From Uliginosibacterium sp. 31-16 (GTDB lineage Bacteria > Pseudomonadota > Gammaproteobacteria > Burkholderiales > Rhodocyclaceae): a stretch of 64,000 nucleotides of DNA. The stretch spans positions 1,364,001 through 1,428,000 of the forward strand of contig NZ_JAVALZ010000001.1 of assembly GCF_030730865.1 (NCBI RefSeq), given 5' to 3'. This document shows positions 2,404-26,791 of the stretch, in pieces; within the stretch, counting starts at the first letter, position 1, and the number at the start of each line of letters is the position of its first letter. The position numbers were made by a program, and so were the translations under genes. Below the pieces are notes generated by a model. It did no database searches and was not told the DNA's origin. It saw only the letters and a program-made list of their open reading frames with translations.

Positions 2404-3390
2404 GTGGTGCGAAGAATGTTGTGGTTGCAGGGCCTGGCCCTGGTGGCAGGGTGCCTGGGAGCGTCGGTGACGCAGGCGCGGGATCTGGTGGCGGCCGAGG
2501 TACATCCGCCGGGGCACATCATGGTTCAGTCCGAGGAACGTCTGGGTGCGCGTCTCGCTGAACTCAGCAAAGGCGAGCTGCAATTGCAGCTCAAGCACAG
2601 TGGTCAGCTGTGCAATGAGGCGCAGTGCTGGGACAAGGTCAAGGCCGGTACCCTGGACATTGCGCGGATCAACCTTGCCGGTCTGGCCAAGGATCTGCCG
2701 GCGGTCAAGCTGCTGAGCCTGCCCTATCTGTTCCGTTCGCGCGAACACATGTGGCGGGTGCTGGGCGGCGAGTTCGGCAAGCGCCTTGAAGCCGAAGCGG
2801 AAAAGACCGGCGCCGTGGTGCTGACCTATTACGACAGCGGCACGCGTTCTTTCTACACCACCAAGAAACCGATCCACAGCGTGGCCGACTTTGCCGGTCT
2901 GCGGGTGCGGGTGCAGGATTCGCCGGTTTACAAGGATCTGATCACCCAGCTGGGTGCCACCCCGGTGGTGCTGCCGTATGACAAGGTGGTCGATGCCTTC
3001 AAGAGTGGCGAGATCGATGCGGCAGAGAACAACACGCCGTCCTATGTCACCAGCGGCCATTACAAGGTGGCCAAGTACTACAGTCTGGACGAGCATTCTT
3101 CCGTGCCGGAAGTGCTGGTGATTTCAAAGAAGGCCTGGTCCTCGCTGAGCCCGGCGCAGCAACAGGCGCTGCGTGAGGCTTCAGCCGAATCGTCGAGCTT
3201 CATGAAGAAGCTGTGGGCGGAGAGTGAAGTGCAGTCGTTGGCCAAGGCGAAGAAGGAAGGTTCGATCGTGACCGAGAAGTCGCAGATTGCGATGTCCGGC
3301 ATCGAAGGCTTTGCGGTGAAGCTGTATTCGAAGTACATCACCGACAGCAACGATCTGGAAACGGTACTGGCGATTCTGCGTACCAAGTAA
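2404..3390 (+). CDS. TRAP-type transporter substrate-binding protein (DctP family)
   Basis: A 328-residue periplasmic solute-binding protein. A hydrophobic signal segment ends near VTQARDL, followed by the family pattern SEERLGARLAELSKGELQLQL and the region VRVQDSPVYKDLITQLGATP, typical of DctP proteins that capture carboxylates for TRAP transporters. GTG at 2404 or 2407 follows AAGGGGAG; an in-frame ATG lies at 2416. It is an orphan: no DctQ or DctM membrane subunit is adjacent, so it either serves a transporter encoded elsewhere or a sensory role. A strong terminator follows at 3509. Confidence 0.8.
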   Translation: MVRRMLWLQGLALVAGCLGASVTQARDLVAAEVHPPGHIMVQSEERLGARLAELSKGELQLQLKHSGQLCNEAQCWDKVKAGTLDIARINLAGLAKDLPAVKLLSLPYLFRSREHMWRVLGGEFGKRLEAEAEKTGAVVLTYYDSGTRSFYTTKKPIHSVADFAGLRVRVQDSPVYKDLITQLGATPVVLPYDKVVDAFKSGEIDAAENNTPSYVTSGHYKVAKYYSLDEHSSVPEVLVISKKAWSSLSPAQQQALREASAESSSFMKKLWAESEVQSLAKAKKEGSIVTEKSQIAMSGIEGFAVKLYSKYITDSNDLETVLAILRTK

Positions 3391-21727: not shown

Positions 21728-22566
21728 GTCGGATTCTCCAGATCAACGCGGAACCAGCGCGCATCATTTTCCTCGCGCAGGCTCACCGGCACGCCGTAGG
21801 CGGCAGACAGCGCGTCGGCGCGCAGCACTTCGTCACGCGTGCCATGTACCGCACCGCCCTTGCCATCGAGCAGCAGGGCGTGGGTCGCCAGCGTCCAGGC
21901 CAGGTTCAGGTCATGCACAGCGGCCAGTACCGTGCCGCCATCTGCCGCCCACGCCTTGAGGCGTGCCTGCAGCAAGGCCTGGTGAGACCAGTCCAGATGC
22001 GAGCTGGGTTCGTCGAGCAGCAACAGCGGCGCGCCCTGGGCGCAGGCGGTGGCGAGTGCCACGCGCTGGCGCTCGCCGCCCGAGAGCATGCGCACATCGG
22101 TATCGGCCAGATGGCCGACGTCGAACTCGGTGAGCCAGCGGCGTGCGTGGCCTTCTACTTCGTTCGCGGAGTGTTCCGGGTGCAGCGCGAACAAGGCGCA
22201 GGCCACCGTTTCCCAGGCACTTACCGGGAAGGGATCGAGCCAGAATTGCGGGCACCAGGCACGTTGTTTCGCAAGCGCTTCGCCGGGCCAGTCGGTCAGT
22301 TGCCTGCCCTGCATCAGGATGCAGCCTGCATTTGGCGAAAGGAGTCCGGCCAAGGCTACCAGCAAGGTGGACTTGCCTGCGCCATTGGGCCCCAGCAGCA
22401 CCCAGCGCTCGCCCGGGTTCATCGACAGGGAAAGCTCGCCGATCAGCATGCGGCCGTCGGGTTTGCCACCGGCATTCAGGTGCAGGTTTTCCAGGCGCAA
22501 AGAAGCGCCCACGCCTTTATTCGGGGCGGCGTCAAACTTGGGATGAGCTGATGTTTGACTTGTCAT
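21724..22566 (-). CDS. btuD: Cobalamin ABC transporter ATP-binding protein
   Basis: A 280-residue ATPase. It contains Walker A VLLGPNGAGKSTLLVALAGL, the ABC signature MLSGGERQRVALATA, Walker B LLLLDEPSSHLDW and the switch His in AAVHDLNLAWTLA. A 30-residue N-terminal leader precedes the domain. The ATG at 22566 is preferred over a much longer frame (to 22977) that reads through btuC out of phase. It overlaps btuC by 4 nt. Confidence 0.95.
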   Translation of the reverse strand: MTSQTSAHPKFDAAPNKGVGASLRLENLHLNAGGKPDGRMLIGELSLSMNPGERWVLLGPNGAGKSTLLVALAGLLSPNAGCILMQGRQLTDWPGEALAKQRAWCPQFWLDPFPVSAWETVACALFALHPEHSANEVEGHARRWLTEFDVGHLADTDVRMLSGGERQRVALATACAQGAPLLLLDEPSSHLDWSHQALLQARLKAWAADGGTVLAAVHDLNLAWTLATHALLLDGKGGAVHGTRDEVLRADALSAAYGVPVSLREENDARWFRVDLENPT

Positions 22567-23537
22567 GCCCGTCTCCGCAAGAGCAGCATCAGGAACAGCG
22601 GCACGCCCACCGCAGCGGAGATCACGCCGACCGGCAATTGCGCAGGGGCGATCACGGTGCGCGCCACGGTGTCGGCCAGCACCAGAAACACGCCGCCGAA
22701 CACGGCCGAGAAGGGCAGCAGTACGCGCGCCGCACGCAGCCCGGTGAGACGCACGATGTGTGGCGCGACGAGGCCCACGAAGCCGATGCTGCCGGCTGTA
22801 GCGACCGCCGCCCCGGTGGCGAGGCAGGCCGCGAAGATCGCGGTGCGGCGGCGCTTGGCCACCGGCACACCCAGCGTCCACGCCCAGGCATCGCCACGCG
22901 CGATCCAGTCCAGCTCTTGCGCACGCGGCCAGGCCAGCAGTAGCGCCAGCCCGGTGGCGGCCCACACCGGCCACCACAAAGCTGCACCATTCAGGTCGCC
23001 GAGCAGCCAGAAAACGATGTTGCGCAACTGCTGGTCATTGGCCATCGCCAGCATGAAGGACACTGCCGCGCTGCAGGCCGCGCCGATCATCACTCCCACC
23101 AGCAGCACGATCACCGTGCCGGGCGAGGCACTGGGGGCGAGGCCCCGGCCCATGCTGCGCCAGGCTAGCGCGAACACCAATGTCATGGCTCCGAGGGCGC
23201 CGGCGACCGCGCCGAGCTCGGGCGCCAGCAGCAGGCCGGCCGGCGCCAGCATCAGCATCAGCAGCGCGCCGACCGAGGCCCCGCTGGTCACGCCCAGCAC
23301 ATGCGGGTCGCCGAGCGGATTGCGGGTAACCAGCTGGATCAAGGCGCCGGCCAGTGCCAGCGCCGCACCCGTGCCGAAAGCGGCGAGCACGCGCGGCAGG
23401 CGGATCAGCCAGAAGATCTCTTCGGTTGGCCAGCCCCAGCCCGCCGAGCCCGACAGCAAGCCTAGCGCGAACGCCGCCGGCACCGCGAGCGCGGCGAGCA
23501 GCAGGGCGAGGGTGAGGGGTGGAGGCTTGAGGGTCAT
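22563..23537 (-). CDS. btuC: Cobalamin ABC transporter permease
   Basis: A 324-residue FecCD-type permease with about ten membrane helices. Family motifs are RLPRVLAAFGTGAALALAGA, NPLGDPHVLGVTSGAS and the C-terminal GSIGFVGLVAPHIVRLTG, which includes the coupling-helix region. The ATG at 23537 is used; a GTG/ATG at 23561 in frame would run into the ACP-like gene. It follows that gene by 10 bp. Confidence 0.95.
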   Translation of the reverse strand: MTLKPPPLTLALLLAALAVPAAFALGLLSGSAGWGWPTEEIFWLIRLPRVLAAFGTGAALALAGALIQLVTRNPLGDPHVLGVTSGASVGALLMLMLAPAGLLLAPELGAVAGALGAMTLVFALAWRSMGRGLAPSASPGTVIVLLVGVMIGAACSAAVSFMLAMANDQQLRNIVFWLLGDLNGAALWWPVWAATGLALLLAWPRAQELDWIARGDAWAWTLGVPVAKRRRTAIFAACLATGAAVATAGSIGFVGLVAPHIVRLTGLRAARVLLPFSAVFGGVFLVLADTVARTVIAPAQLPVGVISAAVGVPLFLMLLLRRRA

Positions 23538-23547
23538 GGTATTCGCC

Positions 23548-24216
23548 TCAATCGAGACCAAGGTCTTTTACGAAATCATGGTCTGCTTGGATCTTCTCAA
23601 GTGGAATAGCCACATAAACGGAGGTGGTCTTTAGTACGCGCTGCAAAATATCGTTGGGAAGAAGATCTTTGTTTTCCGGGATGGCGATGTGTGGCAACAG
23701 GTCGCGTACGGCATTCAGGTTTTCGGGTAACTGGTTGGCGACACGACGGCATATCAGAGCAGCACCAATCCATCCAAGCAGCAAAACAGGTAGCATCGCT
23801 CCAACCGGGAAGTCCGTCAGGAGTATGCTCGCTGCAAGCAGTACGGGAGTGGAGACAGCTATTTTTTTGATGAATGCCGAGGTCTGCAAACGCGGCAAAC
23901 TGCGAAGGCATATCGTGGCTCGGAGTTCACGCCAGTGTTCACGCAAGTCTCCGTGCAGAAGGTCTTTCAGCGGAGTATCAGGCTGTATTTGCCGACGCAT
24001 TGCTCCAAGATGTTTTATCCAGTGCGCACGTAATCGATAAAACTGGGCCTGCGAAAGACAATGAGCCTGTTCTTTACGTCCGATCGCTCCGAGGCGTTTT
24101 GCCACGTAGTCTGCCAGCATGCGTGGGGTGGTGAGTTGCCATGCATCCTGATCAGGGATGTCGATGCCGAACTCTTCTTCCGTCGTCATCACCAATTCCA
24201 CGGCATCCAGACCCAT
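23548..24216 (-). CDS. ACP-like membrane protein, apparently circularly permuted and lacking the prosthetic-group serine
   Basis: A 222-residue protein of unknown function. Residues 1-42 ([20 protein letters not shown] then PDQDAWQLTTPRMLADYV) read as helix 2 to the end of an acyl carrier protein. The last 34 residues (DILQRVLK... to DHDFVKDLGLD) read as helix 1 and loop 1 of an ACP, stopping at the aspartate before the phosphopantetheine serine. In the N-terminal half a glycine (G2) stands where that serine belongs. Between lie a second helical stretch (FYRLRAHWIKHLG, IQPDTPLKDLL) and two membrane helices (about 130-165). GGAGATTTGTA precedes the ATG, which overlaps the cobQ stop by 1 nt (TAATG). 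Co-translation with cobQ and btuC is evident; its role in B12 metabolism is not. Confidence 0.75.
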   Translation of the reverse strand: MGLDAVELVMTTEEEFGIDIPDQDAWQLTTPRMLADYVAKRLGAIGRKEQAHCLSQAQFYRLRAHWIKHLGAMRRQIQPDTPLKDLLHGDLREHWRELRATICLRSLPRLQTSAFIKKIAVSTPVLLAASILLTDFPVGAMLPVLLLGWIGAALICRRVANQLPENLNAVRDLLPHIAIPENKDLLPNDILQRVLKTTSVYVAIPLEKIQADHDFVKDLGLD

Positions 24217-25802
24217 TACAAATCTCCTTTCAGAATCGCCATGAGCTTTTCCGTATCCATGAACTCGGCAATGGTATCCGCCAGCCGTTCGATGCTCGCA
24301 TCACGCAGCGCGGTGATATCTGGCGATTTTGCTTCACTCAGACCGGCCCAGGCGAGCAGGGCGTCGCAGGCTTCGGGCGAATCGAAGAGGCCGTGCAGGT
24401 AAGTGCCGAGGATCTGGCCGTCTGCCGAGATGGCACCATCCGGCCCGCCGGAGAGTTGCACGGCGGGGCGGGCCAGTGCCGGACCGTGCGTGACGCCGGC
24501 ATGGATTTCGTAGCCACGTACTTCAATTTTGGCGTCATTCCGGCCCTTCGGCAGGCTCAGGACAGGCCGGCCTTCGTCCGGGCCGGAATCCAGATCGGAC
24601 GTGGCGGCGACGCTTCCACTGGATCCCGGCCTGCGCCGGGATGACGGCAATGGAAGGTTCAGCGTTCCGTGCTCATTGCGCAGCTGCTTCGCAGAGGCAA
24701 GCGTGGTGCGCATCTCCAGATAGCCTAGCCCGAAAGCCACGCCCGGCGCGCCTTCCAGACCATCCGGATCGGCAATCTCGGTGCCGAGCATCTGGAAACC
24801 GCCGCAGATGCCGATGACTTTTCCGCCGTAGCGCAGGTGCTTGGCAATCGCTGCATCCCAGCCCTGGGCGCGCAGGAATTCGAGATCGGCGCGAACGGCC
24901 TTGGAGCCGGGTAGTACGATCAGGTCAGCCACAGGAATGGCTTCATCCGGGCCGATGAAGCGGAAGTCGATCTGCGGATGCAGGCGCAGGGCGTCGAAGT
25001 CGGTGTGGTTCGAAATGCGCGGCGTGACCGGCACGATCACGCGCAGACGCTGGCCTTCGCCAGCGGGCGAGACAACATCGCGGGCAATCGCATCTTCGGC
25101 TTCGAGCTGCAGGCCGTGCAGATAGGGCAGCACGCCCAGCACCGGTTTGCCGGTGCGCGCTTCCAGCCAGTCCAGCCCGTTCTGCAGCAATGCAATGTCG
25201 CCACGGAAGCGGTTGATCACGAAGCCCTTCACGCGCGCCTGCTCGGTTTCGGAAAGTAGTTCCAGCGTGCCGACCAGATGGGCGAAAACGCCGCCACGGT
25301 CGATGTCGGCGACGATGATCACCGGGCAATCCACGGCCTCGGCGAAGCCCATGTTGGCGATGTCGTTGGCGCGCAGATTGATCTCGGCGGGCGAGCCGGC
25401 GCCTTCGACAATCACCGCCTCATACTGGCCGCACAGGCGTGCGAAGGAGTCGAGCACGGCAGCCTTCGCGGTGGCCTTGTAGGCGTGGTAATCCAACGCA
25501 TCCATGTTGCCGATGGCATGGCCCTGGATGATCACCTGCGCGCCGACGTCGGTATTGGGCTTGAGCAGCACCGGGTTCATGTCGGTGGTGGGGGCGATGC
25601 GGCAGGCCATGGCCTGTGCGGCCTGCGCGCGACCGATTTCACCGCCGTCGGCGGTGACGGCGGAGTTCAAGGCCATGTTCTGCGGCTTGAAGGGCGCCAC
25701 ACGCATCCCGCCGCGTACCAGCCAGCGGCAGAGCGCCGCGACCACGGTGCTCTTGCCGGCATCCGAGGTGCAGCCCTGCACCATCAGGGTTCTGGCCTTC
25801 AT
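24216..25802 (-). CDS. cobQ: Cobyric acid synthase (adenosylcobyrinate amidotransferase)
   Basis: Amidates side chains b, d, e and g of adenosylcobyrinic a,c-diamide using glutamine. The 528-residue protein has an N-terminal dethiobiotin synthetase-like ATPase ([40 protein letters not shown]). Its C-terminal class I amidotransferase domain carries the catalytic Cys in [15 protein letters not shown], then [11 protein letters not shown] and TYLHGLFDS. It is about 40 residues longer than usual because a 114-bp repeat element (24533-24646) reads in frame within the amidotransferase domain, just before the GYEIH motif. ATG 25802 overlaps the cobC stop. All catalytic residues remain. Confidence 0.96.
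24533..24646. repeat. 114-bp palindrome-ended repeat element inside cobQ
   Basis: Ends are CGTCATTCCGGC (24533-24544) and GCCGGGATGACG (24635-24646), inverted copies with one mismatch. Inside are TTCGGCAGGCTCAGGACAGG and CTGGATCCCGGCCTGCGCCG, both words familiar from dispersed proteobacterial intergenic repeats. The length, 114 bp, is exactly 38 codons, so cobQ stays open. It adds residues that include SSRRRPGSS and LSLPKGRND. Confidence 0.85.
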
Positions 25803-26791
25803 GCCATCACCTCGGCGAGCACGGCTTCGAACTTTTCCCATTCTTCCTCTGCGCCCGGCAGGCCGATGCGCAGGCCGCCGTCATGTTCGCGCGTGAGGAC
25901 TGCGCGTTTGGCGAAGGCGATGAACAGCTCATGTGCCAGCGGTGTCGGCACCCAGCGGAACAGCGCGCAGCCGGAGGGTGAGGGCAGACCGTGGGCGGCG
26001 AGCAAGGCCGCGAGGCGGGCGCTGGCTGCGTGCAGGCTGTTCGCGGTGGTCTCGCGCCAGGCGCGGTCGGCCAGCGCACGTTGCGCCACCCAGCGTGCCG
26101 GGCCGCTGACGGTCCACGGGCCGAGGCGCTCATTGAGCTGATCGAGCACATGGTCTTTCGCGGCGATGAAGCCACAGCGGATGCCCGCGAGCCCCCAGAA
26201 CTTGCCGAGTGAGCGCAGGACGACCAGCCCCGGCTGATTGGCATCGCCCAGCACGCTGAGCTCGGGGCTTGCATCGATGAAGGCTTCATCCACCACCAGC
26301 AGGCCGCCCCGGGTGGCGAGGCGAGAATGCCATGCGCGTAGCGTGGCGGGCGGCACGAGTCGGCCGGTGGGATTGTTCGGATTGGTGAGCAGCAGTACGT
26401 CGAGCCGCTCGACGGCCTGTTCGGCGTCCTCGTAAGCAACGCTCTCGACCGGATGCCCGGCGCCGACCCAGGCCTTCAGATGTTCGGCGTAGCACGGTGA
26501 CAGAATTCCGACCCGGCGCGGGCTGAACAGTTGTGGCAGGATCTGGATCGCGGCCTGCGAGCCGGCCAGCGGCAGCACGCGATGGCCGCCGAAACAGGCG
26601 AGGCTGGCCATGGCCAGACCGTCGTCGTCTTCGGGCAGGCGGCGCCACACTTCGGCAGGTAGCGACGGCACCGGCCAGCCCCGCGGATTGATGCCGGTGG
26701 ACAGATCCAGCCAGCGCTGCAGCGGAATGCGGAAATCATGCGCGGCGGCACGCAGGCGGCCGCCGTGCTGGAGGCTAGAAGAGGTGGACAA
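25799..26791 (-). CDS. cobC: Threonine-phosphate decarboxylase-type PLP enzyme of cobalamin synthesis
   Basis: Makes the (R)-1-amino-2-propanol phosphate linker from L-threonine phosphate (called CobD in Salmonella, CobC in Pseudomonas). The 330-residue fold-type I aminotransferase has [47 protein letters not shown] and the PLP-lysine region [18 protein letters not shown]. It overlaps the end of cbiB by 17 nt and the cobQ start by 4 nt. A second, unrelated gene at 17900 carries the same symbol in the phosphatase nomenclature. Confidence 0.93.

Follow-up and report, generated by a model that had tools for sequence, protein, structure and literature searches.

The outer domain of a 222-residue protein encoded by Uliginosibacterium sp. 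31-16 is an acyl carrier protein (ACP) that is circularly permuted exactly at the prosthetic-group serine, with glycine replacing that serine. The gene (23548-24216, minus strand, defined by its open reading frame and sequence) lies in what we call the window, that is, the whole 64,000-nucleotide stretch of DNA analysed here, and represents a conserved family that is scattered widely but thinly and has a low prevalence. We hold the anatomy and the conserved permutation, taken alone, with high confidence. Most likely, we infer, the protein mimics ACP without bearing a prosthetic group and docks ACP-binding enzymes close to the membrane; the explanation as a whole, function included, is tentative and we put its probability at roughly 0.4.

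Read from its start, the chain begins with the second half of the outer ACP, residues 2-44 (24085-24213, minus strand, as for all features of the gene), which correspond to ACP helices II-III-IV and place Gly2 at the position of the phosphopantetheine-bearing serine. There follows the first part of an inner, degenerate and basic ACP-like domain (residues 47-112, 23881-24078), in which Cys53, Phe59, Arg63, Trp95 and Pro108 are conserved, and then a membrane hairpin of two hydrophobic helices (residues 114-159, 23740-23877), recognized by hydropathy and in the AlphaFold model. The end of the inner domain (residues 160-180, 23677-23739; P..LNAVRDLLP) resembles ACP helices III/IV, whereas residues 183-222 (23551-23670) represent ACP helix I and loop I, the first half of the outer ACP. 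The protein terminates in DHDFVKDLGLD, the last residue being the Asp that precedes the serine position.

In its native order, the window protein matches the Pfam PP-binding model with 37.0 bits over half a domain, residues 3-38 aligning with profile positions 32-67 of 67; as this half domain passes the Pfam cut-off of 20.8 bits, automatic annotation is likely to misname the gene. The NCBIfam ACP model (TIGR00517) gives 46 bits and does not reach its cut-off of 70.45, and neither in Pfam nor in NCBIfam was there a model spanning the whole protein. Alignment of the family profile with the solved ACP of Aquifex (2ehs) accounts for both ends: profile positions 3-42 match ACP residues 36-75 (58.3 bits) and profile positions 196-227 match residues 3-34 (32.9 bits), so that Ser 35 is the sole residue left over between the two matches, and it is there that Gly2 falls. 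Rotated sequences, in which the C half precedes the N half as in ACP, were scored against a profile of ACP derived from 17 acpP genes in the fetched loci. Over 83 members, the rotated order scored 66.1 bits on average, against 51.8 for the natural order, 41.7 for the middle part followed by the N half, 37.0 for the N half alone and 36.5 for a shuffled C half followed by the N half, and it was the highest of all arrangements in 83/83 members, well outside what chance would give. The possibility that the middle part is the first half belonging to the N half was ruled out, since that combination scored below the C half plus N half in every member. With the Pfam model, the rotated window sequence reached 50.5 bits over profile positions 12-67, compared with 38.6 bits when the halves were joined in their natural order and 36.5 bits for the middle part plus N half; four rotated relatives scored from 34.2 to 51.7 bits.

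Compared with AcpP and with the models that describe it (TIGR00517, PF00550), the family retains homology in both halves, the core, several surface residues of helix II and the acidic recognition helix. It differs in that the uninterrupted helix order I-II-III-IV has become II-III-IV ... I, in that the serine of the Asp-Ser-Leu motif is replaced by glycine in 83/83 aligned members, and in that a further domain, usually with hydrophobic helices, is inserted. Judged from the sequence, this anatomy would exclude ordinary phosphopantetheinylation. The initial annotation had described an ACP-like chain that breaks at the prosthetic serine, with Gly in its place and two membrane helices between the halves; these observations are confirmed here, and the interpretation attached to them is partly supported. 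That annotation had noted neither the resemblance of the middle region to a second, degenerate ACP nor the wide distribution of the family and its movement between loci.

The position of the break is shared by the relatives. Most of these were fetched with a scan whose start pattern prescribes the first ten residues; conservation there is thus partly built in, and the start provides no independent test within the pattern-fetched set; the stop, by contrast, is independent. Among the 80 complete ORFs (81 ORFs in 80 loci, less L073, which has an incomplete reading frame and is left out of all counts following the hydropathy scan of 84 members described below), the stop lies exactly at the residue preceding the serine position in 74, one residue later in three and one residue earlier in three, and 50 of the 80 have no alternative in-frame start upstream before a stop. 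Searches with proteins, profiles or the inner domain, none of which use the start pattern, yielded 25 distinct complete family genes, search centres excluded, at least seven of which are also among the 80 by position or sequence. Both ends at the site and Gly at position 2 were found in 22 of these 25; the remaining three (L136, L137 and L145) are divergent sister forms with neither the MGLD nor the DLGxD end. One of these searches used the 63 positions of the inner domain only (alignment A6, comprising every second of 78 inner segments, that is, 39/78) and covered 337 genomes from the phylum of a Lentisphaerae bin (G597) and 321 genomes of the window's class. It returned four and three matches, respectively, including L155 and L156, which were new to the set; all seven begin with MGLD and all six complete genes finish at the site. 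The window protein displays all three marks of the family, namely, the Met-Gly start, the stop at the site and an inner motif of the CxSQxxFYxxR type, the Cys of which is conserved in 81/83 and the Arg in 83/83 members. In the sister forms L136 and L137, aligned by eye, NTDPEDIEDLL or a similar sequence (Asp-Pro-Glu-Asp) occupies the place of Asp-Ser-Leu-Asp of ACP, and the chain stops a few residues earlier than in the main group, so that the break is displaced and the serine is again missing. Loss of the serine is accordingly common to the main group and these sister forms, whereas the N-terminal glycine is not. An alternative modification site at position 5 was considered and rejected, because serine occurs there in 29/83 members but the position is variable and is occupied by Ala in the window protein.

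The first whole-genome searches detected full-length relatives in the order, class and genus of the window genome. Within the class, 18/274 genomes had matches at E <= 1e-10, of which the window genome and two others carry the family (one of the genes being cut by a contig end); the other 15 comprise 12 ordinary ACPs with serine and three further matches (L016, L022 and L023). Matches were found in 9/249 genomes of the Flavobacteriaceae (the family of G595) and in 8/246 genomes of the phylum to which the planctomycete G596 belongs; an ordinary ACP accounts for one of these eight, and both counts include the genome that served as search centre. At least one copy of the gene is present in 4/8 Uliginosibacterium genomes. 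Scanning 84,980 species genomes produced 268 pattern matches, 195 of which were relatives and 80 of which were kept; a contig scan with the single window protein retrieved no relative. Going by record titles, the relatives belong to Pseudomonadota, Desulfobulbaceae, Geobacteraceae, ‘Epsilonproteobacteria’, Planctomycetota, Verrucomicrobia/Lentisphaerae/Kiritimatiellales, Acidobacteria, Bacteroidota, Melainabacteria, Armatimonadetes, Archangium, Riflebacteria and Sumerlaeaceae, which by our own grouping of these titles amounts to about a dozen phyla. Many are metagenome bins, and named strains of Chitinilyticum, Uliginosibacterium, Duganella, Plasticicumulans, Desulfogranum, Aquimarina and Winogradskyella are also represented. 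Some genomes carry more than one copy: there is a tandem pair of family genes in one (L035, 7254-7937 and 8001-8690) and two copies each in Desulfogranum (L054/L087), U. gangwonense (L034/L062) and G573 (L026/L030). Among 16 flavobacterial genes, 49 pairs with more than 75% DNA identity gave a median dN/dS of 0.129 (197 codons, ungapped comparison, pairs with a nonzero value only), which points to purifying selection in these close relatives.

The outer domain is acidic and the inner domain mostly basic. By AcpP numbering, Glu is found at position 47 in 83/83, Phe at position 50 in 83/83 and Asp at position 56 in 76/83 members, and all three positions lie beyond the start pattern that fetched most of the sequences; position 48 and other positions of the recognition helix vary among members. 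In AcpP, E41, E47 and neighbouring residues contact partner enzymes. The outer N half has a mean charge of -6.1 and is negative in 83/83 members, the outer C half has a mean charge of -3.5 and is negative in 77/83, and the inner part has a mean charge of +5.7, being positive in 72/83 and negative in six. A simple hydropathy scan places the hydrophobic segments of the window protein at residues 115-133 and 138-156, in agreement with helices at 114-132 and 138-159 in its AlphaFold2 model, which bears out the membrane hairpin proposed from the sequence. Across 84 members, the same scan finds a pair of membrane segments in 36, a single one in 25 and none in 23, so that membrane placement is not general; to judge from the 23 sequences with no hydrophobic segment, the family can do without the membrane part.

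The AlphaFold2 model of the window protein (81 sequences) has a mean pLDDT of 92.9 and a pTM of 0.77, with pLDDT values of 93 for the first ten residues and 92 for the last two; that of a soluble 182-residue relative, L094 (61 sequences), has a pLDDT of 88.3 and a pTM of 0.75. Foldseek aligns structures in sequence order and hence cannot reveal a permutation. With the window model, it matched ACPs over 36-43 columns (0.4-1.5 Å, 38-53% identity), which judging by sequence correspond to the N half. A few ACPs were aligned over 53-57 columns (2.6-2.9 Å, 22-23% identity), and all ACP E-values were above 1. The L094 model was aligned with whole ACPs over 75-108 columns, with TM-scores of at most 0.71 by target length, 7-19% identity and E-values of at least 0.4; by our own reading of a table that does not give the query range, these alignments probably belong to the middle region. 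A single profile comparison of the middle region without its membrane part against ACP gave a probability of 87% (E 4e-6), and 75% when the stretch following the hairpin was also removed, whereas by sequence alone the middle piece scores 0.7 bits on average and 12.9 bits at best with the ACP profile. Given that it has almost no score with the ACP sequence profile, the middle region is at most a remote relative of ACP. The picture of an outer ACP wrapped around a second, degenerate and basic ACP-like domain that mostly bears one or two hydrophobic helices is therefore supported, although more weakly than the permutation itself.

In flavobacteria, the gene appears to be mobile. The copies of Winogradskyella flava (L107, 1434-2024) and Hanstruepera marina (L108, 8001-8591) are 99.2% identical with a dN of 0, and the similarity reaches only 29 bases upstream and 34 bases downstream of the gene; this near-identity with no amino acid change, ending close to the gene, argues for recent transfer between genera. 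The sequence that follows the stop codon is repeated elsewhere in the locus at 9/16 flavobacterial loci and at 0/64 other loci, the window included, and the 3' flank of the window copy is not repeated within 10 kb on either side, nor was an attC-like repeat seen there. The repeat elements, of about 125-190 bases, are located between genes and number 12 copies in 7.5 kb at L098 (1-7549) and eight copies in 16.6 kb at L079 (1-16591), the gene's own copy counted in both cases. The L108 locus is likewise a flavobacterial cassette-like array. Folding of five such elements as DNA gave z values of -4.65, -3.73, -3.13, -2.58 and 0.10, the last indicating that one of the five is without structure. The left and right flanks of the gene pair exactly over 9-12 bases at 6/16 flavobacterial loci; however, because the motif is shared, flanks mispaired between loci still pair over a mean of 6.9 bases, so that flank pairing is by itself not locus-specific. 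Other taxa show no excess. The repeats, up to 12 per locus and some of them hairpin-folding, suggest that some flavobacterial copies have the layout of integron gene cassettes, unlike the window copy, and the arrays are possibly integrons with unusual attC sites; a guessed palindrome had no match in the window. For Bacteroidetes proper, the IntegronFinder 2.0 paper (PMC9024848) reports one complete integron, that of Salinibacter.

Phages and plasmids seem to carry the gene only rarely. A search of phages with the L033 protein gave no match, a pattern-based scan of IMG/VR found one contig that encodes a relative, and matches in PHROGs were to ordinary ACP and to unnamed families. Among the plasmid matches inspected, a Persicobacter record was the only family member, the Neisseria match being acpP and the annotated Acinetobacter matches being named acyl carrier protein. 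In the Persicobacter plasmid (CP012863.1, L006 from position 3001), the frame is broken, with the MGLDTVAL start and the ITYDLGID end in different frames. The 2-4 Mb Neisseria gonorrhoeae and Acinetobacter records of the plasmid collection look like misfiled chromosomes.

Tandem ACP proteins occur in polyketide and polyunsaturated fatty acid synthases, and the arrangement of half an ACP, an ACP-like unit and another half ACP is that of a tandem array cut at the serines of its two flanking units, which we consider the likely origin of the family. The permuted protein differs from such arrays in being the product of a stand-alone gene, in having no serine in any unit and in the strong divergence of its inner unit. 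DUF1493 (PF07377) matches two of five rotated sequences weakly, with 12.9 and 15.4 bits (cut-off 21); we take it to be an ACP-like family with PED at the serine position, as in the sister forms L136 and L137, and, unlike the permuted family, not permuted. Among the titles and abstracts retrieved from the open-access literature, we found neither a permuted or serine-less ACP family nor a link between ACP and integrons; the family may nonetheless have been described elsewhere, for instance in subscription journals or preprints.

The proposed mechanism starts from the missing serine: a protein that cannot take up phosphopantetheine in the normal way would be a mimic of ACP and not a carrier. The N- and C-terminal segments would fold back and close, on the cytosolic side, into a single four-helix bundle of the ACP type. 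The retained acidic recognition helix II would dock an enzyme of lipid metabolism that binds ACP and is widely conserved, and the hairpin would keep this enzyme near the membrane. The mimic could then modulate or block the docked enzyme or compete with holo-ACP. It would work as a single gene with no dedicated partner gene, which would explain its occurrence at unrelated loci. An ACP mimic is the simplest reading of a kept acidic, ACP-shaped surface without cofactor, its connection to a basic inner domain and in many members to the membrane, and the lack of any regular neighbour; against it, the conserved acidic residues could instead dock the protein's own basic inner domain.

Two rival readings concern the gene's integrity and its location. 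A broken ACP gene would explain the missing serine and the partial Pfam match in natural order, and the initial annotation had allowed that this copy might simply be damaged; the chance of this is negligible, and damage is ruled out by stops that lie no more than one residue from a common site in 80/80 complete ORFs and by the purifying selection on close relatives. The location suggests a partner in B12 synthesis or uptake. The start codon shares one base with the stop of cobQ (cobyric acid synthase, 24216-25841, minus strand) in TAATG, behind a ribosome-binding site AAGGAGA within the end of cobQ (24223-24229, minus strand), and 10 bases separate its stop from the ATG (23537) of the next gene downstream, a btuC-like permease gene (22563-23537, minus strand), all as read from the sequence; the translational coupling to cobQ and the place directly before btuC that had been claimed thus hold. 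The NCBIfam annotations of the neighbours comprise cob(I)yrinic acid a,c-diamide adenosyltransferase, cobB, cbiB, a CobD-type decarboxylase and cobQ, as well as btuC-like and btuF-like genes (the BtuC and BtuF models scoring under their cut-offs), cobinamide kinase/guanylyltransferase, cobT and cobS. The cobQ gene itself contains an in-frame 120-base repeat element (24528-24647; its product ending in NDAK) with whole or partial matches at 23 places in the genome, its own copy counted; akin inserts are present in cobQ of G571 and G575 and none were seen in G573, G574 and G576. All 8/8 Uliginosibacterium genomes searched have btuC, and the permuted gene precedes it in only two, from two species: cobQ and btuC overlap by ATGA in three of the others, are separated by a short spacer with no gene seen in it in two, and a different gene lies upstream of btuC in one. 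Within at most 8 kb on each side of the relatives (less on short contigs; btuD left out), homologues of the window's B12 genes occur at 1/80 loci, that of U. aquaticum, a member of the same genus, so that a recurrent cob/btu neighbourhood, which had been suggested as a check, is lacking. On the same counts we reject a B12-specific role, and we regard any partnership with corrinoid synthesis or uptake, as initially proposed, as highly improbable; the place among B12 genes appears accidental. Nor does another partner emerge: the largest cluster among 868 neighbouring ORFs (longest-ORF rule) covers 6/80 loci at scattered positions, and a conserved partner gene was accordingly rejected.

Three further readings take the family as functional in another manner. 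In one, the free amine of the N-terminal glycine, which after removal of Met (Met is removed before an N-terminal Gly) would lie at the place of the serine oxygen, accepts an acyl or phosphopantetheinyl group as an amide or phosphoramidate, making the protein an unusual carrier or a lipidated protein. The chain ends precisely at the serine site, and Gly2 is present in 83/83 aligned members and in 22/22 complete genes with both ends that were found without the start pattern; yet L136 and L137, the sister forms, lack a Met-Gly start and have Pro in the serine region, which argues against an essential reaction of the N-terminal amine, and we know of no enzyme for such a reaction. For the main group this is the bolder of the possibilities, and a rather unlikely one. 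Unlikely, too, is a growth-modulating or defence cassette in which a serine-less ACP has the purpose of inhibiting the synthesis of phospholipids or fatty acids when the cell is stressed or infected. In E. coli, apo-ACP that stays unmodified is toxic and acts as an inhibitor of glycerol-3-phosphate acyltransferase, and both the integron-like setting of nine flavobacterial loci and the transfer between genera would suit such a cassette; however, that setting is confined to flavobacteria among the loci compared, and there is no clear enrichment of defence genes nearby. Among 146 of 152 adjacent proteins (four judged spurious and the two of L073 having been dropped), the commonest PADLOC model, of the best 25 of 66 models, accounts for 3/146 and the commonest Pfam domain, of the best 25 of 176 families, is a methyltransferase in 4/146. 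Finally, complementary half domains that share one cut point might complete each other between molecules, the C-terminal half of one closing with the N-terminal half of the next into a polymer on the membrane. Such an exchange between chains is compatible with the measurements, but the single-chain models are confident over both ends, and closure within one chain needs no special assumption given that the insert links the C-terminus of a native ACP to its N-terminus; we consider head-to-tail assembly improbable.

Besides the ACP mimic as set out above, a broader and speculative idea, to which we give a rather low probability, is that the break point is itself functional, the free Gly amine and the C-terminal carboxylate occupying the place of the serine-phosphopantetheine. 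The protein would then either carry or transfer a group on its N-terminus or act as an obligate cofactor-free mimic that controls lipid enzymes, in both cases as a mobile module of one gene. ACPs are among the most studied of small proteins, and their function is bound to one serine. The family described here provides a natural and well-supported example of circular permutation in a fold that is very common, and the retention of the ACP surface in chains cut at that serine, in about a dozen phyla, points to selection for a cofactor-free ACP shape. It constitutes a natural probe for enzymes that recognize ACP by shape alone and may expose an additional level at which the synthesis of fatty acids and phospholipids is controlled.
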